In this document: in pieces, positions 21,751 through 45,708 of the stretch
Layout of the letters: each line of letters opens with the position of its first letter
Numbering within the stretch: the stretch's first letter is position 1
Assembly: GCF_902825405.1 (NCBI RefSeq)
Contig: NZ_CADEAU010000003.1
Coordinates: 1 to 49,975, forward strand
DNA length: 49,975 nt
Direction of reading: 5' to 3'
Origin: Micromonospora maritima
Lineage (GTDB): Bacteria > Actinomycetota > Actinomycetes > Mycobacteriales > Micromonosporaceae
Position numbers and translations under genes: made by a program
The notes under the pieces: model-generated
The model's database searches: none
Told to the model about the DNA's origin: nothing
Seen by the model: only the letters and a program-made list of their open reading frames with translations

Positions 21751-21793
21751 GGCAGCGATCGTCGACCCACTTGCTGACAGAGAACTCGGCCGC

Positions 21794-22328: not shown

Positions 22329-22479
22329 CCCGAGGGCGGTATGCCGGGCACTTGACCCGTGGTGGCGGCGAAACCTTCAACCGTGGGTCGGGGTGTCTGT
22401 CGGTGAGCCGTCCGGCCGGGCCGACAGCACCCGGTCCCGGCCGGACGGCGACCACACCCTCGTACCGGAAGGACCACTG

Positions 22480-24120: not shown

Positions 24121-24122
24121 CT

Positions 24123-24159
24123 GTCGCGGGGGTACGCCCGCCGGGCGTACCCCCGCGAC
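24123..24159. terminator. 17-bp stem terminator between convergent units
   Basis: GTCGCGGGGGTACGCCC (24123-24139) and its exact complement (24143-24159) enclose a 3-nt loop. It sits between the degenerate enzyme gene and the sigma-factor gene. Confidence 0.75.
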
Positions 24160-24164
24160 GGTAT

Positions 24165-24683: not shown

Positions 24684-24861
24684 CGGACCTCTCGACACCT
24701 GTCGCAACGCGCGTGTCCCCGATTCGGGCGCTTACCGTGCGGCGATCATCCGACGTGGACACTGTCGTACTCATCCGCTTAAATAACGATCGCACCGTAT
24801 GTGATTAATGCGGCAGCGTCAAACGGTAGAGTGGCGACGGCTACGCCCAGGGGAGATGACG

Positions 24862-25641: not shown

Positions 25642-25710
25642 CGACGCGCTCGGCGACCTCCCGCGCTTGACCGACCGGTCGAGCGGTGAAACCTGGCGCC
25701 GGCCCGCGGA

Positions 25711-26619: not shown

Positions 26620-26628
26620 CGACGGGCC

Positions 26629-26662
26629 GCGCCCGGCCGACGGTCTGCCGTCGGCCGGGCGC
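26629..26662. terminator. 15-bp stem terminator between convergent genes
   Basis: GCGCCCGGCCGACGG (26629-26643) pairs perfectly with 26648-26662 around loop TCTG. It separates the lipoprotein gene from the convergent DUF1593-like gene. Confidence 0.8.
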
Positions 26663-26726
26663 TTGGCTGGACGCAGCTTGTCGACGGGCCGGTCCGGTGC
26701 GTCTGGCCGGCCCGGACCGCGCGGGT

Positions 26727-28004
26727 CTACTGCGCGGCGGCGCGGAGGTCGTCGAAGATCGCGGATGCCTGAGCGCAGACCCGGTCGTACGCCTTGTCGA
26801 AGTTGGCGTCGCCCTCGCCGTTGGTGTCGTAGCCGGCGATCCCGCCGTGCAGGAACACCAGGAAGGTGATCGCGTCGGAGAAGTCGGGCGTGATGCCGGC
26901 GTACTTGGCGTTCAGCTGGACGCCCAGGCCCTTCTTCGGGATGGTCACGTCGGCGTCGCACGCGCCGCGGGCGGTGTTGATGAACTTCTGCCCGGCGGCG
27001 CCCAGCTCGATCAGCTTGATCTTGTTCCTGGCGGCCAGCTCGTGAACGTACTCGCAGGCGGAACGGTCGGGCCCGCAGTTCGGGTCGATCGGGAAGCCCG
27101 GGCTGGTGACCGTCCAGTGGCTGACGATGGAGAGCCTCGCCAGGTCCTGCGGGGCGTTGTGCTCCAGCCAGCAGGCCGCGCCGGCGGACTCGGTCATCGG
27201 CCCCCAGTTGAGCACGGTCACGCCGCCGGCCCGCACGGCCTCGATCAGTGCCTTGACGGTGGCCGGCGGGTTCTTCACCCACGGGTTGGAGGCGGTGCAG
27301 GTGGTGAAGCCGCCCTCGAGGCCGCAGATCGAGGACAGTTCCAGGTTCTTCAGGTACGCCCCGTAGGCGTTGCGCGCGTGGGTCATCGCTCCGGCGCAGT
27401 CGGTGATCCGCTGCTCACCGCCGACCACGACCTTGGTCAGGGAGAACTTCGAGGCGTACACGCTCAGGGCCGCCAGGGCCGAGATGTCGTCGGCGTCGGT
27501 CTCGCCGCCCGGCTCGCTCATGTCGGAGGTCACCCACAGCTTCGGCTTGCTCGGGTCCGTGGGAGCCGGCGTGGTGGGAGGAGTCGGGGTCGTGCGGCCG
27601 TCCTGGTCCACGGTGAACGTGACGCTGCGCCTGGTCGTGGTGGATCCCCTGCTGGCGACAGCGGTCAGGGTGTACCTCCCCTCGGACACCGTCCGGCTGT
27701 CCCATCCGAAGGGCGACCCGTTGCTGTCACCACCGAAGAAGTACGGTGCGACGCGTTCGGTCCGGGTGAGGTCCGTCGCGCCGTCGAGGCGGAACACCAC
27801 GCTGTCGGGCCGGCCGTCGACCTTCGCCTCGATCGTCACCTTTCCGCTGACCACCCCGCCCGCGGGGATTCCGGTCAGGCCGGTGACCTGGAGGGTTTCG
27901 TCGGCGGAGGCCTGCGGCCCCAGGATCCAGATACCCGCCACCATCGCCGTCGCCGCCGCGGCGAAACCTGCCGCGGTCGTCCATCGCTTGCTGCTCCTCG
28001 CCAT
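26727..28004 (-). CDS. Secreted DUF1593/nucleoside-hydrolase-like enzyme with Ig-like N-domain
   Basis: This 425-residue protein has a signal peptide (AAAATAMVAGIWILGPQASA) and an Ig-like domain (about 36-133: GVVSGKVTIEAKVDGRPDSV, RVAPYFFGGD, EGRYTLTAVA). A Thr/Pro linker leads to a catalytic domain (about 155-425) starting LWVTSDMSEPGGETDADDIS, an Asp cluster like that of nucleoside hydrolases (Asp161, Asp170, Asp172, Asp173). Later come VLNWGPMTESAGAACW, LSIVSHWTV and FSDAITFLVFLHG with the late Asp. ATG 28004 has AGGAG 8 nt upstream; the frame opens earlier at a TTG. The N-domain is shared with the next gene. Confidence 0.78.
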   Translation of the reverse strand: MARSSKRWTTAAGFAAAATAMVAGIWILGPQASADETLQVTGLTGIPAGGVVSGKVTIEAKVDGRPDSVVFRLDGATDLTRTERVAPYFFGGDSNGSPFGWDSRTVSEGRYTLTAVASRGSTTTRRSVTFTVDQDGRTTPTPPTTPAPTDPSKPKLWVTSDMSEPGGETDADDISALAALSVYASKFSLTKVVVGGEQRITDCAGAMTHARNAYGAYLKNLELSSICGLEGGFTTCTASNPWVKNPPATVKALIEAVRAGGVTVLNWGPMTESAGAACWLEHNAPQDLARLSIVSHWTVTSPGFPIDPNCGPDRSACEYVHELAARNKIKLIELGAAGQKFINTARGACDADVTIPKKGLGVQLNAKYAGITPDFSDAITFLVFLHGGIAGYDTNGEGDANFDKAYDRVCAQASAIFDDLRAAAQ

Positions 28005-28140
28005 GCCTGTCACTCCTGTCAATGCTTGTGCCGATGCCCGCCGCGGTCACGGAAGGCGGTTGCCACCGAGAGACCCCGTTCGGCCGCGTGCGGCGTACGC
28101 GTCGGAGGGCGGGGACGGTGAGGTGACGTGGTGGTACCCG

Positions 28141-28176
28141 GGGTGCGGAGCCGGGCGACGTCCCGGCTCCGCACCC
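28141..28176 (-). terminator. 15-bp stem terminator after the beta-helix gene
   Basis: GGGTGCGGAGCCGGG (28141-28155) pairs with 28162-28176 around a 6-nt loop, 10 bp past the stop of the minus-strand gene. Confidence 0.75.
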
Positions 28177-28186
28177 GGTGGCGCCG

Positions 28187-29485
28187 TCACTCGCAGCCGG
28201 TGACGACGACCTTGTTGCCGGAGGTGTTGGCGCCCTGGACGGTGTTGGCGGAGGTGCTGCGCACCACCGCGCAGTCGCCGCCCTCGACCCGGATGGTCTT
28301 GTTCTTCACGCCGTCCTTGAACGTGTAGAGCGGCGCCTCGTCCATGCCCGGGTTGACCTTGCGGGTGAAGCCCGCACCGACGATCCTGATCGTCCGGGTG
28401 TCGGCCTGCGTGCCGCCGGCCCAGGAGAAGACGCCCTGGTTGTAACCGTCGGACGAGTTGGAGATGACGGTCAGCCCGTCCAGGATCGCGGTGCCCTGCC
28501 CGTAGTCACCCCAGGCCATCTGGATCGGCGCGCCGTTGTGGTTGTGCACGATCGTGGTGTCCCGGATGGTGAGGTCGCCGGTGTAGAGCTTGGCGGAGTC
28601 GTCCCAGGTGTCGATGAGGGTGTTCTCGATCAGCGAGTTGTCGCCGCCGCTGAAACCGTCGGAGTTGTTGCTGCCCAGGTCCCGGTTGTCCAGGTACCGC
28701 ATGCCCGACATGACGACATGCGCGTTCTTGGCCCACATGTGGTAGAAGCGTGGGTTGACCGAGGTGTAGTTGCGCAGGGTCAGCTTGATCTTCGCTTCGG
28801 TGGTCACGCCGGCCCGGGCGTAGTCCTTGGCGTGCGGACCGTCGCCTGTCAACTGGGACGTCTGCTTGTCCCGGCCGGTGATCGTCAACGCCTTCGTGCG
28901 GTTGGCCGGGATGAAGAAGTTGCCCTTCAGGGTCACCCCCGCGCCGATCACGATCTCCGTCCAGGAATCCGGTACGGAGAGCTTGCCGATGGACTTGTTC
29001 GCGGTGAACGTCGCCACTCCGTTGCTGACCGACGGGTTCGTCGCACTCGCGTTGCCGCCGGTCGGCGGCGTCGAGGCCGGCTCGCCGGCCTGCTGACCGA
29101 CCGTGAACCGTACCGTCTGCCGGGTGGTGCCGCCGGGACCGATGGCCCGCACCGCCAGCGTGTACGCGCCGTCCGGGGCGGTGGCCGCGTTCCAGCCCGG
29201 CACGATCGGGCCACTGTTGCCCAGGAAGTAGTAGGGCGCCTCCCGCTCGGTCCAGGTCGCCGTGCTCGCGCCCGAGAGCGAGAACTCCACCCGGTCGACC
29301 GTGCCGCTGGTGCGCGCCTCGATCCGGGCCGTGCCGCTCAGCGCGGCACCCTCGGTGACACCGGCGAGCTGCGTGATGCGCGGGGCGTCGTCGGCGGAGG
29401 CGGTCGGGGCCACCGCCCACGCCCCACCACCTGCGGCCACCACCAGGCCGGCAACTGCCAACTGACGCCAGGATCGTCGTGACAT
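28187..29485 (-). CDS. Secreted parallel beta-helix protein (pectate-lyase-like)
   Basis: This 432-residue protein has a signal peptide ending APTASA. An Ig-like domain (about 34-130) parallels that of the gene downstream (ALSGTARIEARTSGTVDRVE, EREAPYYFLGN, DGAYTLAVRA). A right-handed beta-helix (about 150-432) has repeating short strands: TLKGNFFIPANRTKALTITG, NAHVVMSGMRYLDNRDLGSN, NSLIENTLIDTWDDSAKLY, DLTIRDTTIVHNHNGAPIQM and GTAILDGLTVISNSSDGYN. Such folds occur in polysaccharide lyases, GH28-type enzymes and GH49-like dextranases. No clear lyase Arg/Lys signature is identified, so the activity is open. GAGGAG upstream supports ATG 29485. It diverges from the GH43 gene. Confidence 0.75.
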   Translation of the reverse strand: MSRRSWRQLAVAGLVVAAGGGAWAVAPTASADDAPRITQLAGVTEGAALSGTARIEARTSGTVDRVEFSLSGASTATWTEREAPYYFLGNSGPIVPGWNAATAPDGAYTLAVRAIGPGGTTRQTVRFTVGQQAGEPASTPPTGGNASATNPSVSNGVATFTANKSIGKLSVPDSWTEIVIGAGVTLKGNFFIPANRTKALTITGRDKQTSQLTGDGPHAKDYARAGVTTEAKIKLTLRNYTSVNPRFYHMWAKNAHVVMSGMRYLDNRDLGSNNSDGFSGGDNSLIENTLIDTWDDSAKLYTGDLTIRDTTIVHNHNGAPIQMAWGDYGQGTAILDGLTVISNSSDGYNQGVFSWAGGTQADTRTIRIVGAGFTRKVNPGMDEAPLYTFKDGVKNKTIRVEGGDCAVVRSTSANTVQGANTSGNKVVVTGCE

Positions 29486-29716
29486 CGTCGTGTCTCCTCA
29501 GGACTCGTCTGACTCTCGCTGATCGACGGATGCGCCGACCGACAGGGAGACACTCCGCGTCGCCGGCCCAGGTTTCACCGAGAAGACCTCGGATATCGCG
29601 CTGCCGCGACGAAACCGTCCACGGCATCGCGGAGTGTTCTGCTTCGTCAGCAGCAGCAGCAGTCCCGTGCCGGTCCGTCGCATCGACAAGGCCGGTGGCC
29701 CAGAAGGAGTTCCGTC

Positions 29717-31177
29717 GTGTCCCGTAGAAGGAGGCTGCTCACCGCAGCCGTCAGCACCGTCACAGTGTTCGGGATGGCGGTCGCCGGCCTCACCTCCGCC
29801 AACGCCGACCAGCAGCAAGCCGGAACGGCCGCTACCACCAGCGAGGTCACCTCCGGCAACCCGATCGTGAAGAACATCAGAGGGGCCGATCCGGACGTCC
29901 ACGTGCGGGACGGCACGGTGTGGATGTACACCTCCCAGGACCGACCGCCGGTCGACGCCTCGACGAACTACTCAGGAATGGACGGCTACCACGTCTTCTC
30001 CTCCACCGACATGGTCAACTGGACCGACCACGGCGAGGTCCTGCACTCACGCGACGTGAGCTGGGGGTCCCGCGGCTACATGTGGGCGCCGGGCGCGGCC
30101 CGCAGGGGCACGTCGAACTACCTGTTCTACCCGCACAAGGACAGGAGCGGGATCTGGCGGATCGGTGTGGCCACCGCGAACAGCCCGGCGGGGCCGTTCA
30201 CCGACATCGGCCGTCACATCCCGGACATCTCCGGGATCGACCCGATGGTCCTGCAGGACGGCAGCGACTACTACCTGTACTGGAGCGGCTGGAAGAACGA
30301 GGGCGGGCAGACCAAGCACATCCCGTACGTCGCCAGACTCAAGAGCAACATGACCGAACTCGCGGAGACCCCGCGGGTGGTCAGCTACGGCGCGACCAAC
30401 CACAAGGAGGGCATCTTCGTCTTCAAGAGGGGCACCACCTACTACTTCACCTACACCGACTGGCAGGGCGAGACCGATCAGGGCTTCTGGGCCACCGGCA
30501 GCTCACCGTACGGCCCGTTCGGCGCCGCCGGCCAGCTCAAGGGAGCGGTCGGGCCGAGCCCGGCCGGGGCGCAGGACCACCATTCGATCATCCGGTACGC
30601 CGACAAGTGGTACTACTTCTACCACGTGGGCAACTACACCAACGCCGCCGGTGAGCCCGGCGCCGGATACCGCCGCAACGCCTCGGTGGACTACCTGCAC
30701 TTCCGCGCCGACGGTGGCCTGAAGAAGGTCGTGCACACCACGACGGGGGTGAAGCAGGTGCCCTCGCCGGGCGGCGCCACCTCGCCAGGTGTCCCCGGCC
30801 GCATCCAGGCAGAGGACTTCACCGCGCAGACGGGCGGCGTTCGTATCGAGACCGCGGCCGGCGCCGACGGGCGCAGCATCGGGTACGTCACCGACGGCTC
30901 CTCGGTCACGTACGAGGTGGACGTCGCCGCCTCCGGCCGCCACCGGGTGACCTTCCGCTACGCATCGGCGGCGACGGGCGCCCGGATCAGCGTCACGCAG
31001 GGCCGGGCGCAGGTCGGGGGGACGACGGTCCGCGGCACCGGTGGCTGGACGGCCTGGCGTAGCGTCACCGCCGACGTCGACCTCAAGGCCGGCACGAAGC
31101 AGCGCCTCACCCTCACCTTCGACGGCGCCGGCGACTACCTGCTCAACCTGGATCTCTTCGACGTCATCCGGCGCTGA
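29717..31177 (+). CDS. Secreted GH43-family glycosidase with C-terminal CBM6
   Basis: This 486-residue protein has a signal peptide (about 1-30). A five-bladed propeller domain (about 45-335) carries the GH43 acidic set: Asp58 or Asp60 in ADPDVHVRDG, the pKa-modulating Asp175 in SGIDPMVLQD and the general acid Glu231 in NHKEGIFVFKRG. Blade repeats such as DYYLYWSG and TYYFTYTDW are visible. Residues about 355-486 form a CBM6 (GRIQAEDFTAQTGGVRIETA, DGSSVTYEVDVAASGRHRVT, LLNLDLFDVIRR). GH43 enzymes remove arabinose or xylose from arabinan, arabinoxylan or galactan; the subfamily cannot be told here. AGAAGGAG lies 7 nt before GTG 29717. Confidence 0.9.
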   Translation: MSRRRRLLTAAVSTVTVFGMAVAGLTSANADQQQAGTAATTSEVTSGNPIVKNIRGADPDVHVRDGTVWMYTSQDRPPVDASTNYSGMDGYHVFSSTDMVNWTDHGEVLHSRDVSWGSRGYMWAPGAARRGTSNYLFYPHKDRSGIWRIGVATANSPAGPFTDIGRHIPDISGIDPMVLQDGSDYYLYWSGWKNEGGQTKHIPYVARLKSNMTELAETPRVVSYGATNHKEGIFVFKRGTTYYFTYTDWQGETDQGFWATGSSPYGPFGAAGQLKGAVGPSPAGAQDHHSIIRYADKWYYFYHVGNYTNAAGEPGAGYRRNASVDYLHFRADGGLKKVVHTTTGVKQVPSPGGATSPGVPGRIQAEDFTAQTGGVRIETAAGADGRSIGYVTDGSSVTYEVDVAASGRHRVTFRYASAATGARISVTQGRAQVGGTTVRGTGGWTAWRSVTADVDLKAGTKQRLTLTFDGAGDYLLNLDLFDVIRR

Positions 31178-31192
31178 CGGCGACGCGCACCA

Positions 31193-31229
31193 GGCGTTCC
31201 GCCCGGGCAGGACGGCCGGGCGGAACGCC
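31193..31229 (+). terminator. 14-bp stem terminator after GH43 gene
   Basis: GGCGTTCCGCCCGG (31193-31206) pairs with CCGGGCGGAACGCC (31216-31229) around a 9-nt loop, 16 bp past the stop. Confidence 0.75.
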
Positions 31230-32519: not shown

Positions 32520-34307
32520 ATGAACATGTGGAGAAGACTTTCCGGCTCACGCCGGGCGGTCGCGCTCTCCGGAGCAGGCGTCCTGGTCGCGGGAGGTCTG
32601 GTGGCGCTGCCCGTCACCGCAGCCCAGGCCGCCACCCAGTGCGAGGTGTCCTACTCGACCAACGACTGGCCGGGCGGGTTCACCGCCTCGGTCACCATCA
32701 AGAACGTCGGCGACGCCCTCAACGGCTGGACGCTGGGATTCACCTTCCCGGACAGCGGTCAGCGCGTGGGGCAGGGCTGGGCCGCTCGGTGGGCACAGTC
32801 CGGCCAGGAGGTCAGCGCCCAGAACGAGTCCTGGAACGGCGCCGTCGCCAGCGGCGCGACGCTGAGCCTCGGCTTCAACGGCTCGTGGAGTGGCAGCAAT
32901 CCGAAACCGACGTCGTTCACGCTGAACGGCACGGTCTGCAACGGCGGCACTCCGACCACCCCGCCGACCAGCAGCAGCCCGTCGCCGACCACGACCCCGA
33001 CGGCCAGCCCGACGCCGTCGCCGACCGGCCCGACGACCCCGCCCGGACCGAAGGTGGACAACCCGTACGCCGGGGTGCGGGGCTATGTGAACCCGGAGTG
33101 GAAGGCCAAGGCCGAGTCGGTCGCGGGCGGCAACCGGGTGTCGAACAACCCGACCGCGGTCTGGCTCGACCGCATCGCCGCCATCAACGGCACCCCGGAC
33201 AGCAGCTCCAACGGCGCGATGGGCGTGCGGGACCACCTGGACGAGGCGCTGCGGCAGGGTGCCGGCTACATCCAGTTCGTCATCTACAACCTGCCCGGCC
33301 GCGACTGCGCCGCGCTCGCCTCCAACGGTGAGCTGGGTCCGAACGAGCTGCCCAAGTACAAGTCCGACTACATCGACCCGATCGCCGCGATCCAGGCCGA
33401 CCCGAAGTACAAGGACCTCCGGATCGTCAACATCATCGAGATCGACTCGATCCCGAACCTGCACACCAACACCGGCGGCAGCCCGGGCGCGACCGCGATG
33501 TGCGACACGGTCAAGGCCAACGGCGCGTACATCAACGGCGTCGGCTACGCGCTGGCCAAGCTCGGCGCGATCGGCAACGTCTACAACTACATCGACGCCG
33601 CGCACCACGGCTGGATCGGCTGGGACAGCAACTTCAGCCCCGTCGCGACCCTGCTGCACCAGGCGGCGATCGCCTCGGGCAGCACGGTGGACAACGTCAC
33701 CGGCTTCATCGTCAACACGGCGAACTACTCCGCCCTCAAGGAGCCGTACTTCAAGGTCACGGACACGGTGAACGGGCAGATGGTGCGGCAGTCCAAGTGG
33801 GTCGACTGGAACTTCTACGTCGACGAGCTCTCGTTCGCCCAGGCGTTCCGGCAGGAGCTGATCTCCAAGGGCTTCCGGAACAACATCGGCATGCTGATCG
33901 ACACCTCCCGCAACGGCTGGGGCGGCTCCGCCCGGCCCACCGGCCCGGGCCCGATGACCAACGTCGACGCCTACGTCAACGGTGGCCGCATCGACCGCCG
34001 GATCCACGCCGGCAACTGGTGCAACCAGGCCGGCGCGGGCCTCGGCGAGCGGCCTCGGGCGAACCCCGAGCCCGGCATCGACGCCTACGTCTGGGTGAAG
34101 CCGCCGGGCGAGTCGGACGGCTCCAGCACCGCCATCCCGAACGACGAGGGCAAGGGCTTCGACCGGATGTGCGACCCGACGTACACCGGCAACGCCCGCA
34201 ACGGGTACAGCATGACCGGGGCCCTGCCCAACGCACCGATCTCCGGTGCCTGGTTCCCGGCGCAGTTCGCGCAGCTCATGCAGAACGCCTACCCGGCGCT
34301 GTCCTGA
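32520..34307 (+). CDS. Secreted cellobiohydrolase, CBM2-GH6
   Basis: This 595-residue protein has a signal peptide (about 1-38), then CBM2 (about 40-140) with paired Cys41/Cys140 and surface Trp residues (NDWPGG, NGWTLGF, NESWNG). A Pro/Thr/Ser linker (about 144-178) leads to the GH6 catalytic domain (about 180-595). Catalytic Asp262 is in YNLPGRDCAA and the acid Asp309 in VNIIEIDSIPNL. Other GH6 landmarks are GNVYNYIDAAHHGWIGWDSN and GMLIDTSRNGWGG. It releases cellobiose from cellulose chain ends outside the cell. AAGGAG (32504-32509) fits either GTG 32514 or ATG 32520. A 17-bp hairpin follows. Confidence 0.95.
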   Translation: MNMWRRLSGSRRAVALSGAGVLVAGGLVALPVTAAQAATQCEVSYSTNDWPGGFTASVTIKNVGDALNGWTLGFTFPDSGQRVGQGWAARWAQSGQEVSAQNESWNGAVASGATLSLGFNGSWSGSNPKPTSFTLNGTVCNGGTPTTPPTSSSPSPTTTPTASPTPSPTGPTTPPGPKVDNPYAGVRGYVNPEWKAKAESVAGGNRVSNNPTAVWLDRIAAINGTPDSSSNGAMGVRDHLDEALRQGAGYIQFVIYNLPGRDCAALASNGELGPNELPKYKSDYIDPIAAIQADPKYKDLRIVNIIEIDSIPNLHTNTGGSPGATAMCDTVKANGAYINGVGYALAKLGAIGNVYNYIDAAHHGWIGWDSNFSPVATLLHQAAIASGSTVDNVTGFIVNTANYSALKEPYFKVTDTVNGQMVRQSKWVDWNFYVDELSFAQAFRQELISKGFRNNIGMLIDTSRNGWGGSARPTGPGPMTNVDAYVNGGRIDRRIHAGNWCNQAGAGLGERPRANPEPGIDAYVWVKPPGESDGSSTAIPNDEGKGFDRMCDPTYTGNARNGYSMTGALPNAPISGAWFPAQFAQLMQNAYPALS

Positions 34308-34364
34308 GTCCGGTGCGCGCCGGTCGCTCGAACCCGGCACGTCACCACCCGCGGTAGTTCCCGC

Positions 34365-34400
34365 GTCCCTGATCCCGGCCGCCCGGCCGGGATCAGGGAC
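34365..34400 (+). terminator. 17-bp stem terminator after GH6 gene
   Basis: GTCCCTGATCCCGGCCG (34365-34381) and its exact complement (34384-34400) leave a 2-nt gap, 58 bp past the stop codon. Confidence 0.8.
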
Positions 34401-34496
34401 GGTTGGGGTGACCGGCATGAACGAGAACGTCGTCCAGGCCGGCAAGCTGACCACGCCGGTCGACCCGGGCACCTACTACACCGGCGATCTCGTCCC

Positions 34497-34833
34497 GGCG
34501 GCCAGCACGTCACCAACCCGCGCTACATCCTCTTCCTGACGACCGACCAGCACCGGGTGCACATGCTCGGCGCGTACGGCAACCAGCTCGCGGCCACGCC
34601 GGCCCTCGACGCGCCGGCCCGCTCCGGCGCCCGCTTCGACCGCCGACTACTGCCCGCGCCCGGCGCTGATCGACCCACAGGGGCCCGGGCGCGGCCCGTC
34701 CCGGGTGTTGCCTGGCGGCTCGTATCTGTGTCACGACTCGTGCTGCAACAGGTATCGCAACTCCGCGCGGTCGTCCAACACGCCTGACTCGTCGATGGAC
34801 AACGCCGGTTTCCGCACCGTGGGCCGCGCATGA
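34497..34833 (+). pseudogene. Sulfatase N-terminus joined to FGE (sulfatase-modifying factor) C-terminus
   Basis: The frame at 34500-34640 reads [40 protein letters not shown] then DR. This is the N-terminal metal-site segment of a type I sulfatase (TTDQH), stopping just before the expected CxPxR active site. In the next frame, 34642-34833 reads [40 protein letters not shown] and [17 protein letters not shown]. This is the C-terminus of formylglycine-generating enzyme, with both catalytic Cys of the CHxSxC motif and the NTPDSS signature. Internal deletion and frameshift removed the rest of both genes. A short unrelated frame, MNENVVQAGKLTTPVDPG at 34417, precedes it. Confidence 0.82.
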
Positions 34834-34882
34834 CGGACGGCCTCGCTCGGTGCCAGCCGCCCGATCTGGCCGACATGCGGGG

Positions 34883-34919
34883 GTACCGGCCCCCGGCTCG
34901 CCCAACCGAGGGCCGGTAC
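34883..34919. terminator. Possible hairpin in remnant region
   Basis: GTACCGGCCC (34883-34892) pairs with GGGCCGGTAC (34910-34919) around a 17-nt loop, 50 bp after the FGE remnant. It may be the old terminator of that gene. Confidence 0.4.
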
Positions 34920-35204
34920 GTGTCACCATCGCCGTGCGGAGCGGGTCACAGGCCGGTGGTGCGTACGGCACCCGTTCGGTCGGACGGAGTCGGGCGGTGG
35001 TCCCGAGGCTGCCATGTGTATCCACGCAGCTCTATCCTGGTGCATTGATCGCCGATGACAGTGCCGGAGCCGTCACTGCGCGGAAGGTCGTCTGAGCAGC
35101 GTATCCGTAAGCGGGCGCGGTTCTCGCCGGCGATCGTCTGGGCCGAGCGAAGGCTGAAATGATTCATCGACGGCGCCGGGGTGGCGGTGACATGAAACCC
35201 CCGG

Positions 35205-35510
35205 GCGTGGGTCGGGGTGTTCAGTTCCCCGAGTGCTGGGACGGCGTCCGGCTCGACAGTCCGGACCACAGGAGTCACCTGGCCTACGCGGACCGGGGCG
35301 ACTGCCCGCGCCATCCGGTGGCGGTCCCGGGCATCACCCTGTCGGTGAACGTCGAATACGGCAGGGACATCCAGCGGTCGGGACCGGATCAGCCTTTCCG
35401 GCGGCGGAGTCCTCTCCGGCCACGCGGACTTCATCACCACCTGAGACAGGAGGCGACCCTGGGTCGGCTCGTCGCCGGCTGCCCCAACGCCGCGAATTCC
35501 GGTGACCGGA
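35205..35510 (+). pseudogene. DUF1996 secreted-protein fragment
   Basis: One frame reads GVQFPECWDGVRLDSPDHRS, HLAYADRGDCPRHPVAVPGI and TLSVNVEYG. This is the core of DUF1996 (pattern FPxCWDG, LDSPDHRSHxAY, CPxxHPVxxP). The sequence then changes frame to LSGGGVLSGHADFITT followed by a TGA where Trp is expected, and a third frame gives TLGRLVAGCPNAA. The N-terminal part of the usual 300-residue domain is missing. DUF1996 proteins are secreted and often linked to carbohydrate-binding modules; their activity is unknown. Confidence 0.7.
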
Positions 35511-35664
35511 ATGCTGGCAGCCCGGCGGGGTGGCCGCTCGTCGCATACGGGCGGTCAACCGGCCGGCCGCGCCCGGGGAGGTAAACGAGGAGTTCACGTC
35601 CACGCCGCCACTGGTCGCCGCCTAGGTTGCGCAGCGTTACCGCGGCATTGCCACAAAGTTTCCA

Positions 35665-35692
35665 TTGACGTTCTCCGTGTTCACTGTATACA
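35665..35692 (+). promoter_or_regulatory. Probable sigma-70 promoter with GTATAC palindrome
   Basis: TTGACG (35665-35670) and TATACA (35687-35692) are 16 bp apart, 39 bp before the start of the secreted protein at 35731. The -10 box lies in the palindrome TGTATACA (35685-35692), a core often seen in GntR-family operators. Confidence 0.45.
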
Positions 35693-35730
35693 ACGTATCC
35701 GTCAGCTTCGCATCGATGAACGGAGGCCGG

Positions 35731-36555
35731 ATGAGCAAGGCGTTCAACAGGGGGTGGCGCGTCGCCGTGACGGCGGCCGCAGCCGTCACGCTGCTCGGTT
35801 CCGGAGCGGTGGCCGCCCACGCCGCGCCACCCGCGCTCAGCTATCCGTGTGAGCGGATCGCGGTGAGTTCCGACGGCAACTACCACGACCGCGACGACAT
35901 CGGCGCCTCCGCGATGGCGCTCGCGCTCCTGGCGGAGAAGGGCCAGCAGTCCCGGCTGGTGCACTGGGACTACAACTCCCACCTGGGCAGCTCGACCGCC
36001 AGCTGGGAGCGGGACATGGTCACCGCGACCGAGGGCACCGCGGGCCAGTTCGGGTATGACACGGGCGTCATCTTCCGCAACAGCCAGGCCGATCTCGGCC
36101 GGGCGGTCACCCATCTGAAGAACAAGATCGACGCCTCGACGGCCAGCAGCCGGCTCTGCCTGATCGGCGCCGGGCCGATGGGTGTCGTCCACCGGGCGCT
36201 TGACGCCTCGAACCCCGCGGTCCACCCGCACGTCACGCTGATCTCCCACTCCGACTGGAACAACAACCACGACGACGACGACAACATCTGGAACCTCGCG
36301 GACATCCGCCGCGACTTCCCCCAGGTGCGGTACACCCGCATCCCGGACCAGAACGCCGGCCTGGGTACGAACGGCGGCGAGGCCAGGTGGTCCTGGATGG
36401 CCAACTCGGCAGACCCGGGTCTGCGCTACGTGCACGACGTGGTCAACAACGTGATGAACAAGAACGGCGATGTCTCCGACGCCGGGATGATGTACTACCT
36501 GATCACCGGCGACGACTCCGGCAACGCGACCAAGCTGCGCAACTTCCTGCAGTGA
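35731..36555 (+). CDS. Secreted nucleoside-hydrolase-like protein (intact paralogue)
   Basis: This 274-residue protein has a signal peptide (VAVTAAAAVTLLGSGAVAAHA) and the same domain as at 22480: SSDGNYHDRDDIGASAMALA, WDYNSHLGSSTASWERDMVT, CLIGAGPMGVVHRAL, SHSDWNNNHDDDDNIWNLAD and SDAGMMYYLITGDDSGN. It ends naturally right after the catalytic domain (KLRNFLQ), without CBM6. The Asp-rich start and late SDAGM motif suggest a metal-dependent nucleoside-hydrolase-like fold. GGAGG at 35722-35726 fits ATG 35731; ATG 35716 is less likely. It lies 236 bp before the sugar-transport operon, in the same direction. Confidence 0.8.
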   Translation: MSKAFNRGWRVAVTAAAAVTLLGSGAVAAHAAPPALSYPCERIAVSSDGNYHDRDDIGASAMALALLAEKGQQSRLVHWDYNSHLGSSTASWERDMVTATEGTAGQFGYDTGVIFRNSQADLGRAVTHLKNKIDASTASSRLCLIGAGPMGVVHRALDASNPAVHPHVTLISHSDWNNNHDDDDNIWNLADIRRDFPQVRYTRIPDQNAGLGTNGGEARWSWMANSADPGLRYVHDVVNNVMNKNGDVSDAGMMYYLITGDDSGNATKLRNFLQ

Positions 36556-36791
36556 GGGTGGACGGGGCGGCGCCCGGCCGGCGACACCCGCGGTCACGCC
36601 GCCCCGCCCACCGCCCGGGCAGTGCCGCGGGCTGCTCCAGAGCCACCGGGCTGACTGACAGTGGCGCCGTCGTCCGTCACCGCCCCGACGGCCGGCCCCG
36701 ACGACGGCTCTCCCGAAGACATCGGATCGAGCCGACGCGATCGACCTCCACACCCCCCACCACACCTTCTCGCCCTCTCCCTGGAGGAGCC

Positions 36792-38114
36792 ATGGCACAC
36801 CTGAGCCGCACCGGCCTGACCCGCCGCCACGCGCTGAGCCTCGGCCTCGGCGCCGGCCTCACCGTCGCCCTCGCCGCGTGCGGCGAGGACGGCACCTCGA
36901 CCGCCGGCGGGACGTCGCTCGGCGGGGCCAGCCTCACCGGACTGATGCGCGCCAGCTTCATCCCGGCCATCCACGAACTGCAGCAGAAGCAGGCCACCGC
37001 CTGGGCGGACTCCCACGACGGGGCCGTCGAGCTGACCTTCGCCAAGGAGTGGCGGGAGCAGATCGCCGCCGTCGTCGAGTCCCGCGCCGGCGAGGACCTC
37101 GGTGAACTCTTCGCCAACCAGGCGCACATCTACGCGGACCGCCTGGTCGACCTCACCGACCTGTGCGAGTCCATCGGCGAGGCCAACGGTGGCTGGTACG
37201 ACGTCGCCCGGGCCGCCTGCGTCGTGGACGGCCGGTGGCGGGCGGTCCCGCGCGCGTACACCGCGCACGTGATGAACTGGCGCACCGACCTGTTCGCGCA
37301 GGTCGGCATCACCGAGTTCCCGAAGACCTGGACCGGTCTGGTCGAGGCGGCGACCCGCCTGCGGGACGCGAAGCTGCCCCGGGTGGCCCTCACCATGAGC
37401 CAGGCCGGCCCGAACGACTCGGCCAGCGTCGCCTACTCCCTGCTGTGGTCCTACGGTGCCGCCGAGGTGGAGAAGGACGGCAAGACCGTCGCCATCAACA
37501 GCGCCGAGACGCGCGCCGCCATCAAGGTGATGCAGGACCTGGCCGCCGCGAGCGCCCCGGAGATCTCCTCCTACGACGAGGGCGGCAACAACACCAGCTT
37601 CCTCGCCGGCAAGATCGCGGTGACCCAGAACGCCACAAGCATCTGGTACACCGCGCAGAAGCAGGCTCCGGACGTCGCGAAGAACATGAGCCACGCCCGC
37701 TACCCGGAGGGTCCGGCCGGCCACCAGCAGCTCGTGGAGATGAACTCGCTGGCGATCTTCTCGCACAGCAAGCGGATCGAACCGGCCAAGAACCTCTTCG
37801 GTCACCTGATGGACAAGGCGCAGCTCGGCAAGCTGGCCGAGATCGCGCTCACCTACTACACCCCGCTGCTGAAGGGCTACGACGACCTGCCCACCATGCC
37901 GTGGAACTCCGAGGCCAAGCTCAAGGGGCTCAAGGGTCTGGCCGCCGGGGGACACATGCCGGGCTGGCCCGGGCCGGCCTCCCGGCAGTCGGCCCAGGCG
38001 TACAACAACCAGACGATCGTCAACATGTTCGCCCGGGTGATCAGCGGCAAGGCCAGCGCGGAGGAATCCATCCGGGTCGCCGAGGGCGAGCTCAAGAAGG
38101 TGTACGGGGGCTGA
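36792..38114 (+). CDS. ABC transporter sugar-binding lipoprotein (family 1)
   Basis: This 440-residue protein has a Tat-like lipoprotein signal (TRRHALSLGLGAGL, lipobox ALAAC near residue 30). A family-1 solute-binding fold follows: ADRLVDLTDLCESIGEANGG, VVDGRWRAVPRAYTAHVMNW, RTDLFAQVGITEFPKTWTGL and NNTSFLAGKIAVTQNATSIW. It captures a sugar or sugar acid outside the cell for the two permeases that follow. GGAGGAG lies 3-9 nt before ATG 36792. It is the first gene of a nine-gene operon. Confidence 0.9.
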   Translation: MAHLSRTGLTRRHALSLGLGAGLTVALAACGEDGTSTAGGTSLGGASLTGLMRASFIPAIHELQQKQATAWADSHDGAVELTFAKEWREQIAAVVESRAGEDLGELFANQAHIYADRLVDLTDLCESIGEANGGWYDVARAACVVDGRWRAVPRAYTAHVMNWRTDLFAQVGITEFPKTWTGLVEAATRLRDAKLPRVALTMSQAGPNDSASVAYSLLWSYGAAEVEKDGKTVAINSAETRAAIKVMQDLAAASAPEISSYDEGGNNTSFLAGKIAVTQNATSIWYTAQKQAPDVAKNMSHARYPEGPAGHQQLVEMNSLAIFSHSKRIEPAKNLFGHLMDKAQLGKLAEIALTYYTPLLKGYDDLPTMPWNSEAKLKGLKGLAAGGHMPGWPGPASRQSAQAYNNQTIVNMFARVISGKASAEESIRVAEGELKKVYGG

Positions 38115-38119
38115 CGTCG

Positions 38120-39076
38120 ATGACCGTACGCACAGTAGACCGGGTCGTGGGCCCGCGACGCCCGGCCCGGCCGAGCCCTCCGGCCGCCCGTGAGCGGTGG
38201 TCCTTCCTGGACCGCGAGACTCCGTTGGGCTACCTGCTCGTCCTGCCGATGGCGGTGGTGGTCCTCGGGCTTGTGGGTTATCCGCTGGTGCTCACCGTGT
38301 GGTTCAGCCTGACCGACAAGTCACTCGGCAGCGATACGGTCTCCTTCGTCGGGCTGACCAACTACCTGGAGCTGCTCGACGACCCGGTCTTCGCCCGGAC
38401 CATGTGGAACACGTTCAACTACACCGTCACCGCCGTGCTCGCGAAGCTGGTGCTGGGCCTGGTGATGGCGCTGGCGCTCAACGAGGTCCGTCGGTTCCGC
38501 CGGTTCTTCCGGGCCGCGTTCCTCCTGCCCTGGGTCGTGCCCTCGTCGTTGAGCGTGCTGGCCTGGATGTGGATGTTCCAGGCGGACTTCAGCGTGCTGA
38601 CCTATCTCGGCCGGCAGGTCGGGCTGGTGGACGGCAACATCCCGTGGTTGGGCGAGGCGGGCTGGGCGATGGCCGCCGTGCAGACGGTCAACATCTGGCG
38701 TGGCGCCCCGTTCTTCGGGATCATCATCCTCGCCGGGCTGGCCACCGTACCCAAGGAACTCGTCGAGGCGGCCGTCGTCGACGGCGCGAGCGCGTGGCAG
38801 CGGTTGCGGTACGTCATCCTTCCGCACCTGACCCCGATCCTCGTGGTGGTCACCCTCTTCTCGTTCGTGCAGACGCTCGGCGACTTCCAGATCGTCTGGA
38901 TCCTCACCAACGGCGGCCCGGTCAACAGCACCCACCTGATCAGCACGCTGGCGTTCCGCACCGGCATCCGGGGCGCGGACATCGCCTCCGGGTCGGCGAT
39001 CTCGTTCTTCGTGTTCCCCGCGCTCGCCGCGATCATCGCGCTGCAACTGACCGTGATGCGACGAAAGGCGAAATGA
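38120..39076 (+). CDS. CUT1 ABC transporter permease (MalF/UgpA type)
   Basis: This 318-residue protein has six predicted TM helices beginning LGYLLVLPMAVVVLGLVGYP. The EAA loop, EAAVVDGASAWQRLRYVILP, contacts the ATPase. It starts 5 nt after the binding-protein stop and its TGA overlaps the next ATG. No ATPase gene is present in the operon. In actinomycetes such systems usually share the general ATPase MsiK encoded elsewhere. Confidence 0.93.
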   Translation: MTVRTVDRVVGPRRPARPSPPAARERWSFLDRETPLGYLLVLPMAVVVLGLVGYPLVLTVWFSLTDKSLGSDTVSFVGLTNYLELLDDPVFARTMWNTFNYTVTAVLAKLVLGLVMALALNEVRRFRRFFRAAFLLPWVVPSSLSVLAWMWMFQADFSVLTYLGRQVGLVDGNIPWLGEAGWAMAAVQTVNIWRGAPFFGIIILAGLATVPKELVEAAVVDGASAWQRLRYVILPHLTPILVVVTLFSFVQTLGDFQIVWILTNGGPVNSTHLISTLAFRTGIRGADIASGSAISFFVFPALAAIIALQLTVMRRKAK

Positions 39077-39987
39077 CCATGACCACCGTGTCCGGCCGGG
39101 CCGCCCGGCCACCCCTGCCCGCGCCTCCGCCGCGTACCGGACGGCTTCTGCGCCGCCTGAAACTGGGCCGGCGGCTGCTGATCACCGTCACGATGACGTT
39201 GTTCACCGTCTTCACGCTGTTCCCCTTCGTCTGGATGGCGCTGACCTCGCTGCGCACCGGATCGGACCTCTACCGGGTCGCCGACCGGCCGTTCTCGGTC
39301 AGTGGGCTCACCCTGGAACACTTCCGGGAACTGCTCACCGAGACGAAGTTCCTCACCTGGACGCTGAACAGCCTGATCGTGGCGCTGTCGGCCTCGGCGA
39401 TCGCGTTGGTCATCGGGGTGCCGGCGGCGTACAGCCTGGGTCGGTTGCGGTACCGCGGCGGCGCCGTGGTGGGCGTGATCGTCTTCTCCACCTACCTCCT
39501 CCCGCCGGCGTTGCTGTTCATCCCGATGAACGTCGTGGTCAACCGGCTGCACCTGGGCAACACGCTCGGCGCGCTGATCCTGGTGTACCTGACCTTCCTG
39601 GTGCCCTTCATCGCCTGGATGCTCTCCAGCTACTTCCAGAGCCTGCCGGTCGAACTGGCGGAGGCCGCCCGGATCGACGGCGCCAGCCGGCTACGGGCGA
39701 TGATGGTGATCGACCTGCCGCTGGTGCTACCGGGCGTGGTCTCGGTGTTCTTCTTCGCCTTCACCCTCTGCTGGCAGGAATACCTGTACGCGTTGACCTT
39801 CGTGCGCTCTACCGACAAGCAGCCCGTCGCGGTGGGACTGGTCAACGCCCTGCAGGTAGGCGACGTGTTCGCCTGGGGCCAACTGATGGGCGGGGCGCTA
39901 CTCGGCGCGTTGCCCGTGGTGATCATCTTTTCCTTCCTCATGGACTACTACCTGTCCGGCCTGACCGCGGGAGCGGTGAAGGGATGA
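39073..39987 (+). CDS. CUT1 ABC transporter permease (MalG/UgpE type)
   Basis: This 304-residue protein has six TM helices, among them LLITVTMTLFTVFTLFPFVW and VIVFSTYLLPPALLFIPMNV. The EAA loop is EAARIDGASRLRAMMVIDLP. It forms the heterodimeric pore with the preceding permease. ATG 39073 lies in an ATGA overlap with the upstream stop, and its own stop overlaps the VOC gene in the same way. Confidence 0.93.
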   Translation: MTMTTVSGRAARPPLPAPPPRTGRLLRRLKLGRRLLITVTMTLFTVFTLFPFVWMALTSLRTGSDLYRVADRPFSVSGLTLEHFRELLTETKFLTWTLNSLIVALSASAIALVIGVPAAYSLGRLRYRGGAVVGVIVFSTYLLPPALLFIPMNVVVNRLHLGNTLGALILVYLTFLVPFIAWMLSSYFQSLPVELAEAARIDGASRLRAMMVIDLPLVLPGVVSVFFFAFTLCWQEYLYALTFVRSTDKQPVAVGLVNALQVGDVFAWGQLMGGALLGALPVVIIFSFLMDYYLSGLTAGAVKG

Positions 39988-40394
39988 GCATGCGCGAGCA
40001 GGTTCGCGGGCTCGATCACGTCGGGCTGGTGGTGCCCGACACGGAGCAGGCGCTGGCGCTGTGGCGGGACCGCTTGGGCTTCACCGTCACGCACGCCGAG
40101 GTGGTCAACGACGATACGGTCCTGCTCACCCACCTCGACCTCGGTAACGTCCACCTGCAACTGGTGCAGCCCCTGGTCCGGCCGCACCCGCTGCACGAGT
40201 GGCTGGACCGGCACGGTGCCGGCCTGCACCACCTCTGCTTCGCTGTGGACTCGGTCGACGTGGCCTGGCACGGCGACGGCGTCGGTGTCCCGCCCGCCCA
40301 GCCGTCGCCGCACCAGGGCATCCGCGGCCGACGGTCGGTCTTCCTCGATCCGCGCCGCTCCGGCGGCGTCCAGGTGGAGCTGACCGGCTCATGA
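39984..40394 (+). CDS. VOC (glyoxalase/epimerase-like) protein
   Basis: This 136-residue single-chain VOC protein begins GLDHVGLVVPDTEQALALWR and has VHLQLVQPL and GAGLHHLCFAVDSVDVAW. The metal ligands of the fold are visible as His in LDHV, Glu/Gln in the central strand and His in LHHLCFAV. The layout is closest to methylmalonyl-CoA epimerase-like members, which act on 2-keto acids or acyl-CoAs. In this operon it may epimerise or isomerise a sugar-acid intermediate. That is inference from context. Confidence 0.8.
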   Translation: MSMREQVRGLDHVGLVVPDTEQALALWRDRLGFTVTHAEVVNDDTVLLTHLDLGNVHLQLVQPLVRPHPLHEWLDRHGAGLHHLCFAVDSVDVAWHGDGVGVPPAQPSPHQGIRGRRSVFLDPRRSGGVQVELTGS

Positions 40395-41833
40395 CTCACT
40401 CCTCGACCGCGCCGGACCTGGCCGGGCTGCCCGCCCCGTGGGCGGAGCCCCTCGTGCCGCCACTGGCACAGCGCATCGCCGCCGAACGACGTACGGTCGT
40501 CGTCCTCGACGACGACCCGACCGGCACACAGACGGCGCACGGGGTGCCGGTGCTCACCCGATGGGACGCCGCCGCCATCGCCGGGGAACTCTCCTCCAGA
40601 CCGCCGGCGTTGTTCCTGCTGACCAACTCGCGGTCGCTCGATCCGGCCCGCGCCGCGGAGATCAACACCAGGACCGGCCGGCAGATCCGTGCCGCGGCCG
40701 AGTCGGTGCGGAGTCGGGTCGTCGTGGTCAGCCGGGGTGACTCGACCCTGCGCGGACACTTCCCGGACGAAACCATGGCCCTGGCGGACGGTCTCGGTGG
40801 CGGGTTCGACGGCGTCCTGCTGGTGCCCGCCTTCCTCGAGGGCGGGCGGGTGACCGTCGACGGCCGGCACTGGGTGGCCGACGCCGACGGCTGGACGCCG
40901 GTGGGCCGGACGCCGTACGCCCGGGACGCCACGTTCGGGTTCGGCTCGTCCGACCTGCCCGACTGGGTGGCCGAGCGCAGCGGCGGCCGGATCCCACGGG
41001 AGGCCGTGCAGGTGCTGACGCTGCGGGAGTTGCGCACGGGTGGCCCGGCAGCCGTCTTCCGCCGGTTGGCCCGCCTGCGCGACGGTGCCGTCTGCGCCTG
41101 CGACGCGGCCGACCAGGCCGACCTCGACGTGCTGGTCGCCGGGGTGCTGGCCGCCGAGGCGGCCGGGGCACGACTGCTCTACCGCACGGCGGCGTCCTTC
41201 GTCCGGGTCCGTGCCGGGCTGCCGCCGCGCGACCTGCTCACCAACGGAGAGCTGGGGCTGCGGCGGCGGACCGGCGGGGGAGGACTGGTGGTGGTGGGCT
41301 CCCACGTGCCCACCACCACCGTCCAGCTCGAACGGCTCCTCGCCGACCCCACGGTGGTGGGCGTCGAGGTCGACGCGACACTGCTCGCCGGAACCGAACG
41401 GCAGGCGGCCGCCGAGGTCGACCGGGTGGCCACGCTGGCCGACCACGCGATGGCGGCGGGGTGCACCGCTGTGGTGCACACCAGCCGGCGGGTGTTGACC
41501 GCGGCGACCGCGGCGCGGGCCCTCGCCCGCAGCGTACGGATCTCGACCGGGCTGGTGCGGATCGTCGGCCGGATCCCGGCGCGGCCCGCCTTCGTGGTGG
41601 CCAAGGGCGGCATCACGTCCAGCGACGTCGCCGCGGACGGGCTGGGCATCAACCGGGCCGAGGTGCTCGGGCAGGTGGTGCCGGGTGTGCCGGTGTGGCG
41701 GGCCGGCATGAACAGCCGGTATCCGGGCCTCACCTACGTGGTCTTTCCCGGCAACGTCGGCGGTCCCGACGACCTGCTGGCGGTGGTGGCGAGGCTCGGT
41801 GGAGCCGATTGGCAGGAGTCGACACGTGCCTGA
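40391..41833 (+). CDS. Four-carbon acid-sugar kinase family protein (OtnK/DUF1537-like)
   Basis: This 480-residue protein has a DUF1537 N-domain (VVVLDDDPTGTQTAHGVPVL, FLLTNSRSLDP, VVVSRGDSTLRGHFPDE). The C-terminal nucleotide-binding domain has VVVGSHVPTTTVQLERLL and the FVVAKGGITSSDVAADGLG loop that binds ATP. Characterised members phosphorylate D-threonate, D-erythronate, 2-oxo-tetronate or 3-oxo-tetronate at O4. Its usual partners are PdxA2 or OtnI/OtnC; here the downstream dehydrogenase is of the isopropylmalate type. It overlaps its neighbours by 4 and 8 nt. Confidence 0.9.
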   Translation: MTHSSTAPDLAGLPAPWAEPLVPPLAQRIAAERRTVVVLDDDPTGTQTAHGVPVLTRWDAAAIAGELSSRPPALFLLTNSRSLDPARAAEINTRTGRQIRAAAESVRSRVVVVSRGDSTLRGHFPDETMALADGLGGGFDGVLLVPAFLEGGRVTVDGRHWVADADGWTPVGRTPYARDATFGFGSSDLPDWVAERSGGRIPREAVQVLTLRELRTGGPAAVFRRLARLRDGAVCACDAADQADLDVLVAGVLAAEAAGARLLYRTAASFVRVRAGLPPRDLLTNGELGLRRRTGGGGLVVVGSHVPTTTVQLERLLADPTVVGVEVDATLLAGTERQAAAEVDRVATLADHAMAAGCTAVVHTSRRVLTAATAARALARSVRISTGLVRIVGRIPARPAFVVAKGGITSSDVAADGLGINRAEVLGQVVPGVPVWRAGMNSRYPGLTYVVFPGNVGGPDDLLAVVARLGGADWQESTRA

Positions 41834-42665
41834 GCCGTTGAATGGATACGACGTACACACGATCCGGCCGGCGAGCCGCCGGTCGCCGCTGGTCGACGTG
41901 CACGGGCACTTCGGTCGCTCCGCCGCCACCGGATACTCGGCGGGCGCGCCCGAACTGCTCGCGGCGATGGACCACCACGGCATCGACACCACGCTCGTCA
42001 TGCCGCAGCCGTCGACCGACCGGGAGACCGCCGACGAGGTGCACGCCGAGATCGGGGAGGCGGTCGTTCGCCATCCCGGGCGGCTCTACGGCATCGTCAA
42101 CCTCGACCCGCGCCTGCCCGACGCGGAGTACCGGCGACGGGCCGCGACCCTGCTCGACCGGCCGGGTTTCGTCGCGGTGAAGATCCACACTGCGGGGTTC
42201 GCGGTGGCGCCCGACGACCCGGTCTGCGACAAGGCGTTCCGAATCGCCGCCGACTACGACGTACCGGTGATGGTGCACACCGGCCTGGGCGGGCCACACA
42301 CCCTGCCGCACCGGGTGGTCGACCCGGCCCGTCGGTACGCCGAGCGGCCGGTGGTGCTCTGCCACGCCGGATTCGGCGCGTTCTGTGCCGAGGCGATCGA
42401 GGTGGCGGTGACGCAGTCGAACGTCCACCTCGAGCCGTCCTGGTGCCCGGCCTTCAGCGTCCGGCAGATGGTGCGTCGGCTCGGTGCCCACCGGGTCATG
42501 TTCGGCAGCGACCACATCGACAACATCCCGGTGGAACTGGCGAAGTTCGACGCCGTCGGTCTGACCCCCGGGGAACGGCGCCTCGTCTACGCCGGCACCG
42601 CCGCCAGCGTCTTCTCCCTCGACCCGTCCGCCCCCGCCACCCCCCGACCGGAGGTTTCCGCATGA
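41826..42665 (+). CDS. Amidohydrolase (TIM-barrel, Amidohydro_2)
   Basis: This 279-residue protein has the metal motif LVDVHGHFG (HxH) near residue 27, a Lys-His strand VAVKIHTAGF, PVMVHTGLGGPHT, VVLCHAGFGAF and the late Asp in VMFGSDHIDN. Amidohydro_2 enzymes hydrolyse lactones, decarboxylate aromatic acids or cleave related C-C bonds. In this operon a sugar-acid lactonase is the simplest reading. GTG 41826 (MPEPLNGYDVH) is chosen within an 8-nt overlap with the kinase; the frame opens 9 codons earlier. Confidence 0.82.
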   Translation: MPEPLNGYDVHTIRPASRRSPLVDVHGHFGRSAATGYSAGAPELLAAMDHHGIDTTLVMPQPSTDRETADEVHAEIGEAVVRHPGRLYGIVNLDPRLPDAEYRRRAATLLDRPGFVAVKIHTAGFAVAPDDPVCDKAFRIAADYDVPVMVHTGLGGPHTLPHRVVDPARRYAERPVVLCHAGFGAFCAEAIEVAVTQSNVHLEPSWCPAFSVRQMVRRLGAHRVMFGSDHIDNIPVELAKFDAVGLTPGERRLVYAGTAASVFSLDPSAPATPRPEVSA

Positions 42666-43759
42666 CCGACTACCGCATCGCCGTGCTGCCCGGAGACGGC
42701 ATCGGTCCCGAGATCATCGCCGTCGCCACGGAGGTGCTGCAACGGCTCACCGCCGCGCACGGCGGGATCTCGCTCCATCTCGACCGGCACGACGCGGGTG
42801 CCACCCGCTGGCTGCGCGAGGGCACCGTGTTGACCGACGAGACGTACGACGCCTGCGTGCGGGCCGACGCCATCCTGATGGGCGCGATCGGTCTGCCCGA
42901 GGCGCGTCACCCGGACGGTCGGGAGGTCAACGGCGACGTCATCTTCCGGCTCCGCTTCGACCTGGACCTGTACGCCGGAATCAGGCCGGTCCGGTCCTGG
43001 CCGGGACTGACCAGCCCGCTGTCGGCCGCGCCGCCCGTCGACTACGTGGTGGTGCGGGAGAACGTGGAGGGCCTGTACGCCTCCCGGACCGGCGGCTGCA
43101 ACGTGCGGGAGGAAGTCGCCACGGACACCATCGTGATCACCGCGACCGGTACCCGGAAGGTGACCGAACAGGCGTTCCGCCTGGCCGGCAAGCGCGCCGG
43201 CCGCCCCCGCGACGGCCGCCGGACGGTCACCTGTGTGGACAAGGCGAACGTGCTCGCCTCGTACGCGTTCTTCCGGCGGGTCTTCGACCGGGTGGCCGAG
43301 GGCCACCCCGACATCGGCGCCGAGCACGTCTACGTCGACGCGATGACCGCGTACCAGGTGCAGCAGCCCGACATGTTCGACGTGGTGGTCGCCGAGAACA
43401 TGTTCGGCGACATCATCTCCGATCTGGCGGCAGCCACGGTCGGTGGGCTGGGCCTGGCCGCCTCCGGCGACGTCGGTGACCGGCACGCGCTGTTCCAGCC
43501 GGCGCACGGCTCCGCGCCCACCATCGCCGGCAAGGGCGTGGCCAATCCGATCGCCACCGTGCTGTCGGCGGCCATGATGCTCGACTGGCTGGCGGACCGG
43601 CACGCGGATCCGGCCGCGGCCGAGGTGGCCAGGTTGATCGAGGACGCCGTCGGCGACGTGCTCGCCGAAGGACGGGTCCTTACGCCGGACCTGGGTGGGA
43701 CCGCGAGCACCGTCGAGGTCGGTGCGGCGATCGTCGCGGCGGCGGGGCGGAGGCGGTAA
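42662..43759 (+). CDS. Isocitrate/isopropylmalate dehydrogenase family enzyme
   Basis: This 365-residue beta-hydroxyacid oxidative decarboxylase has VLPGDGIGPEI, the substrate Arg loop (FRLRFDLDLYAGIRPVRSW), VVRENVEGLYASRTG, the catalytic Lys in TCVDKANVL, metal Asp residues in YVDAMTAYQ and FGDIISDLAA, and the cofactor loop HGSAPTIAGKGVANPIA. It fits the tartrate/isopropylmalate dehydrogenase branch. Its place after a C4-acid kinase suggests it oxidises and decarboxylates a 4-phosphotetronate or a related hydroxy acid. No leu genes are nearby, so leucine synthesis is unlikely. ATGA overlap with the upstream gene. Confidence 0.9.
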   Translation: MTDYRIAVLPGDGIGPEIIAVATEVLQRLTAAHGGISLHLDRHDAGATRWLREGTVLTDETYDACVRADAILMGAIGLPEARHPDGREVNGDVIFRLRFDLDLYAGIRPVRSWPGLTSPLSAAPPVDYVVVRENVEGLYASRTGGCNVREEVATDTIVITATGTRKVTEQAFRLAGKRAGRPRDGRRTVTCVDKANVLASYAFFRRVFDRVAEGHPDIGAEHVYVDAMTAYQVQQPDMFDVVVAENMFGDIISDLAAATVGGLGLAASGDVGDRHALFQPAHGSAPTIAGKGVANPIATVLSAAMMLDWLADRHADPAAAEVARLIEDAVGDVLAEGRVLTPDLGGTASTVEVGAAIVAAAGRRR

Positions 43760-43780
43760 GTGAGTAGGGGAGGAACGGGG

Positions 43781-45513: not shown

Positions 45514-45708
45514 TGGTCGCCCGGCTCCGGGCCGCGTCCCGGTCCGCGTCGCACCCGGGTGGCCGTCTCCGCGGGCACCCGGTGCGGCGGCCCGGCCAGG
45601 CGACGCGGGTGCGCCACGACTGCCCGCGCCCCGCACGAGTAGTGAACCGGTCACCGGGCATCCGCCGTACCCCTGACCGTATGGGTCGTGGCGGGGGCGG
45701 AGGCTGAC

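Follow-up and report, generated by a model that had tools for sequence, protein, structure and literature searches.

The window analysed here is contig C3 (49,975 bases) of a 6.23-Mb draft genome in 986 contigs, with a completeness of 99.94%. The locus is known from this one contig and the species is represented by one genome in the comparison. The stretch of about 430 bases between two genes for secreted proteins is made up of fused pieces of three genes, and these are the leftovers of three neighbouring genes for the uptake and cleavage of a sulfate ester, broken by deletion. The features are as follows, G158 and G014 being other genomes of the genus.

32526 to 34307, + strand: left flank, secreted cellulase GH6 with CBM2 (PF01341, PF00553), approximate start.
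34406 to 34512, + strand: last ~35 codons of the gene for an SsuA-family ABC substrate-binding protein (SBP), stop codon lost (G158 and G014 DNA).
34509 to 34643, + strand: first 45 codons of a type I sulfatase gene, start codon lost (G014, Actinomadura and G158 matches).
34640 to 34643, + strand: deletion junction, 4 bases common to the sulfatase and FGE sides of G158 (alignment with G158).
34640 to 34833, + strand: last 62 codons and stop of the gene for a formylglycine-generating enzyme (FGE) (PF03781, G158 DNA, solved FGEs).
35223 to 35506, + strand: 3' part of a gene for a DUF1996 secreted protein, frame-disrupted (G158 DNA, PF09362).
35725 to 36555, + strand: right flank, secreted protein with no Pfam family and 89% protein identity to G158.

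The end of the SBP gene was not recorded in the first-pass annotation. Its match starts at 34406, and it overlaps the start of the sulfatase piece in the same arrangement as in the intact operon. Together the two pieces (34406-34643) align with G158 481425-481188 at 89% DNA identity and with G014 (L048 4037-4265) at 76%; the G014 match likewise starts ahead of the sulfatase, inside the end of the SBP gene that overlaps the sulfatase start. The SsuA-family name rests on the intact SBP of Actinomadura, which scores 204.3 bits against TIGR01728 (cut-off 163.5), as the end piece in the window is too short for scoring. Among solved structures, the Actinomadura SBP matches taurine- and sulfonate-binding proteins (best E 7.5e-13).

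The sulfatase piece has the N-terminal strand with TDQHR and GAYGN stretches, which we take to be markers of the type I sulfatase N-terminus, and it stops short of the CxPxR active-site motif. It is 63% identical to G014 across 49 queried residues (E 1.8e-12) and 73% identical in protein to the Actinomadura sulfatase; residues 1-51 of the latter, used as the query, are 67% identical to the piece. The score against PF00884 is 15.9 bits, under the cut-off of 25. With the DNA match to G158, these results bear out the type I sulfatase N-terminus named in the first-pass annotation.

The claim that the FGE C-terminus follows, with both catalytic cysteines, also holds. The piece scores 35.8 bits against PF03781 (cut-off 23.3) at profile positions 207-254 of 255, so that only the C-terminal end of the profile is present and not a full-length core domain; a genome-wide scan recovered it again at 32.2 bits. 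Solved FGEs are matched in phmmer (E 4e-20 to 2q17 and 3.6e-20 to 6muj), and alignment with these two structures shows that both active-site cysteines are kept, in a CHDSxC stretch, and that there are replacements at positions conserved in solved FGEs. The two cysteines are five apart, as are Cys272 and Cys277 of the S. coelicolor FGE according to an excerpt of PMC4505483, a likeness of spacing only. Protein identity to Actinomadura is 84% over 50 residues, and 34640-34855 aligns with G158 478886-478670 at 80% DNA identity.

Relative to G158, 2,305 bp are missing internally, from sulfatase codon 45 to near the end of the FGE gene. A junction had been proposed at about 34640, and the alignment places it at 34640-34643. 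The deletion is likely to have been mediated by microhomology, as judged from the bases at the junction, because, of 100,000 breakpoint pairs drawn at random, 2.8% have an overlap of at least 4 bases. The frame changes across the junction, so that the sulfatase piece is read in one frame and the FGE piece in another, and no chimeric protein is encoded. A single chimeric reading frame was rejected on this ground, and the "chimeric" fusion of the first-pass annotation does not stand as a protein. Conservation of a chimera in other species was also considered and rejected: five short matches that cross the junction or lie close to it (in G088, G034, G199, G190 and G187) resemble chance similarity of GC-rich DNA, and at E 0.005 neither a sulfatase nor an FGE was matched behind them.

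The FGE tail lies in an open frame of 97 codons. This frame and the retention of both FGE cysteines would fit expression of the tail, or of the sulfatase head, as a short functional protein. We give that reading next to no credence, since the FGE core is missing, the frame is broken at the junction, a joined sulfatase-FGE match is found in none of the 159 other genus genomes (two candidates scored in each), and the changes are spread evenly across codon positions. Annotators are warned not to take the FGE-tail frame for a gene.

The evenness of these changes was seen when each was assigned to the branch of the window or to that of G158, the outgroups being G218 and Actinomadura, plus G014 for two of the three pieces. 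Changes at codon positions 1, 2 and 3 number 11, 8 and 8 on the window branch and 1, 0 and 9 on the G158 branch (positions 1 and 2 against 3, Fisher p 0.002), a test of 37 polarised changes in short alignments from which 25 ambiguous changes (5, 6 and 14) were excluded. Intact control genes, which were not polarised, vary mainly at one codon position (20/3/65 and 14/14/61; a third, counted in a shifted frame, gave 3/45/9). The even spread on the window branch therefore indicates that the scrap evolves as non-coding DNA. The pieces are thus those of a pseudogene, truncated and frame-broken in comparison with intact relatives and released from coding constraint. At 89% identity to G158 the SBP-sulfatase piece is no more diverged than other stretches (controls 88, 90 and 94%; collinear DNA 84-91%), and decay is therefore recent or slow; only the FGE (80%) and DUF1996 (83%) scraps fall below the range of 84-94%.

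No RNA gene is matched by Rfam at gathering scores in 34000-36000, and neither a promoter nor a T-tailed terminator was found at the locus. GC-rich hairpins were noticed by eye near 34369-34400 and 34880-34921. A comparison of 34856-35222 and 35507-35657 with 120 kb of G158 gave no convincing further scraps.

G158, a complete genome, has the SBP, sulfatase and FGE genes whole and side by side, without internal stops, and its sulfatase bears a CTPAR motif. In G218 there is an intact row of SBP, sulfatase, a second, distant sulfatase and FGE. A second FGE in G218 (L172 4977-5440) lacks about 109 residues and changes frame at L172 5240, with the C-terminal cysteine pair kept. The FGE match in G014 is in three pieces in two frames, which may reflect decay or sequencing error. 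The operons of G158 and Actinomadura darangshiensis share with the window pieces the three genes, their order and their strand; they are intact, whereas the window retains one end, one start and one end. Wider afield, the 62-residue FGE tail was confirmed in at least 138 relatives among named genomes, and the best 80 of these loci were kept. Five of these best 80 have a close SBP and sulfatase ahead of the FGE, all on one strand:

Actinomadura darangshiensis (L059)
Microbispora siamensis (L071)
Winogradskya consettensis (L075)
Symbioplanes lichenis (L078)
Actinoplanes sp. TFC3 (L084)

Compared with G014, the SBPs of the five are 62-75% and the sulfatases 80-87% identical, and a second, distant sulfatase is interposed in four of them. 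Fredinandcohnia onubensis (L126) has distant versions of the SBP and sulfatase (32% and 38%) in unchanged order, Streptosporangium canum (L081) has the operon genes in a different order, and at many other loci among the best 80 the sulfatases are distant or absent within the stretch fetched.

These data support the proposal that adjacent sulfatase and FGE genes were collapsed by deletion, since the genes are intact in G158 and G218 in the same order and on the same strand, and the junction is visible. We conclude that the window pieces are almost certainly a non-functional remnant of an SBP-sulfatase-FGE operon. The 2,305-bp gap would have arisen in this lineage as one deletion with short matching bases at its two ends.

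Within the genus, a DNA search with 34310-35720 covered 160 genomes, including the one under study, with two candidates scored per genome. There were matches in 43 of the 160, mostly short and to the DUF1996 part, and the SBP-sulfatase piece was matched along its length in three of the 159 other genomes (G158, G218 and G014). This patchiness would suit a failed horizontal gain, with the operon already truncated and broken on arrival. We consider that improbable, as G158, the closest by synteny among the genomes found, has an intact operon and collinear DUF1996 and right-flank genes. Vertical descent with local loss is simpler because the intact operon of G158 precedes the DUF1996 and right-flank genes in the shared order.

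That order, and the strand, are as in the window. The DUF1996 scrap aligns with G158 450207-449924 at 83% DNA identity with indels, the gene being intact in G158, and PF09362 scores 42.7 bits in an open reading frame at 35159-35584. Further right, window 35658-36574 and 36782-45514 are collinear with G158 444321-434363. Intact sulfatase and FGE genes were looked for at the same place in relatives: G158 and G218 have such genes, and in G158 the distance from the operon to the right-hand neighbour is 34-37 kb. A simple loss of 28.5 kb between the FGE scrap and the DUF1996 scrap was rejected because much of the G158 stretch has a counterpart on contig C8 of the genome under study; rearrangement is involved between these two scraps.

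The right-flank protein had been considered as PIG-L, an identity that was dropped for lack of a Pfam match. A secreted protein of about 275 residues is present in two copies in the window (22576-23298 and 35827-36552), and matches at E 1e-30 occur in five of 160 genus genomes, our own included, with up to three copies each. Ahead of the second copy, at 35658-35714, a run of 43-57 bases is 89-93% conserved in G158, G017 and G040 and includes GTATAC; on this conservation it is maybe a candidate regulator site. Most of window 22370-25642 occurs twice in G158, at 431-434 kb and again within 410-419 kb, suggestive of a segment duplication there. An open reading frame at 6485-7411 resembles an IS3-type transposase by eye and has a 69% match near 499 kb of G158.

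On the left side, 13125-31229 and the GH6 gene match G158 427920-407965 and 430025-428027, beyond the collinear block. A second GH6 gene of G158, at 2.32 Mb, matches nearly as well (83 against 84%), and orthology of the GH6 genes is therefore not certain. In G017 and G040 a GH6 gene is followed by the secreted protein in the order of the window, with 6-8 kb of other genes between them, and the sulfatase of the window operon has no match in either genome at E 1e-10. A rearrangement in one or other lineage thus has its breakpoint near 34308-34405, at the left border of the scar. For these reasons we do not take the scar as an explanation for the adjoining cellulase. The earlier view that it tells what the neighbouring secreted enzymes do is weak: G158 has the left flank at another place, and G017 and G040 gave no sulfatase match at that E-value.

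The 986 contigs and the single genome of the species leave room for an assembly artefact, in which the ends of two unrelated contigs were put together and the draft lacks the intact operon. This is very unlikely given the completeness of the assembly. The loss of the sulfatase start and the SBP stop, along with the replacements at conserved FGE positions, indicates that the pieces decayed as DNA. Additionally, a search of the genome with the intact sulfatase at E 1e-10 found the scrap as its sole match, and the SBP has no close copy at any other place in the genome, the best matches being 29% identical.

Besides the SBP, sulfatase and FGE, the intact operon has a regulator and an ABC permease, named by family; the ROK-type regulator was named from matches under curated cut-offs. 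The sulfatase has no obvious signal peptide on reading and meets none of the curated NCBIfam cut-offs; its closest solved relative by sequence is an exo-2S-iota-carrageenan sulfatase (E 2.7e-53). The SsuA-type transporter and the ROK-type regulator point to a small, imported sulfate or sulfonate ester as the substrate and not to that of the adjoining secreted cellulase. The ROK-type regulator would control an SsuA-type ABC importer of this ester, a cytoplasmic arylsulfatase-like enzyme would then free the sulfate, and the FGE would activate the sulfatase by converting the CxPxR cysteine to formylglycine. The ats cluster of Pseudomonas aeruginosa (the atsRBC transporter with atsA) is presumably the best model for the intact operon. 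It is alike in having an SsuA-like ABC importer adjoining a type I arylsulfatase; in contrast, a ROK-type regulator and the FGE lie inside the operon here. The sulfate-ester route in the genome under study is most likely dead.

G158 has a second sulfatase, with a CCPSR motif, and the counterpart of its island is contig C8 of our genome. By eye, this second sulfatase adjoins a sugar ABC transporter and an alpha-galactosidase. In C8 the second sulfatase and its transporter are gone save for small scraps. The end of the sulfatase survives inside the match of C8 9151-9278 to G158rc 34269-34393, and a 46-bp sulfatase scrap (C8 9317-9362 to G158rc 35255-35300) is 87% identical with E 3e-11 against all 60 kb; the next G158 match in the same search has E 1e-4 (27 bp, at another place and strand) and the best on reversed G158 has E 0.004. 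The scraps at C8 (L193) 9151-9370 sit between genes that look by eye like those for alpha-galactosidase and arabinose isomerase.

C8 also carries an intact FGE gene at 6862-7845 (PF03781, 260 bits). The other two PF03781 matches in the genome are the scrap and a C183 protein, which looks like EgtB by its longer frame. There are five PF00884 matches (E 0.001) within four proteins, all of which on reading have Thr in place of the formylglycine cysteine, and the FGE therefore appears to be left without a known client. An FGE matching the C8 protein at E 1e-60 is found in 20 of 160 genus genomes, our own included (13 candidates scored per genome), and the trait is therefore patchy. The genome has lost both FGE-dependent sulfatases of the two G158 loci and has kept an intact FGE. 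We hold it unlikely that, absent another Cys-type sulfatase, the client of this FGE is a non-sulfatase protein.

In Salmonella, broken genes are removed by deletions (Kuo and Ochman, 2010; an excerpt of PMC2916853); the case in that excerpt is Salmonella, whereas ours is a single locus of an actinomycete-type genome. Among the literature matches listed there was no paper on this remnant or on FGE without sulfatases. The remnant is ordinary gene decay, unusually readable, and a further example of an already known kind, a well-documented pseudogene. Read against its relatives, it is a clean example of an operon eroding by internal deletion with the gene ends left in order. The part worth following is the kept FGE and its role in a genome apparently without sulfatases.
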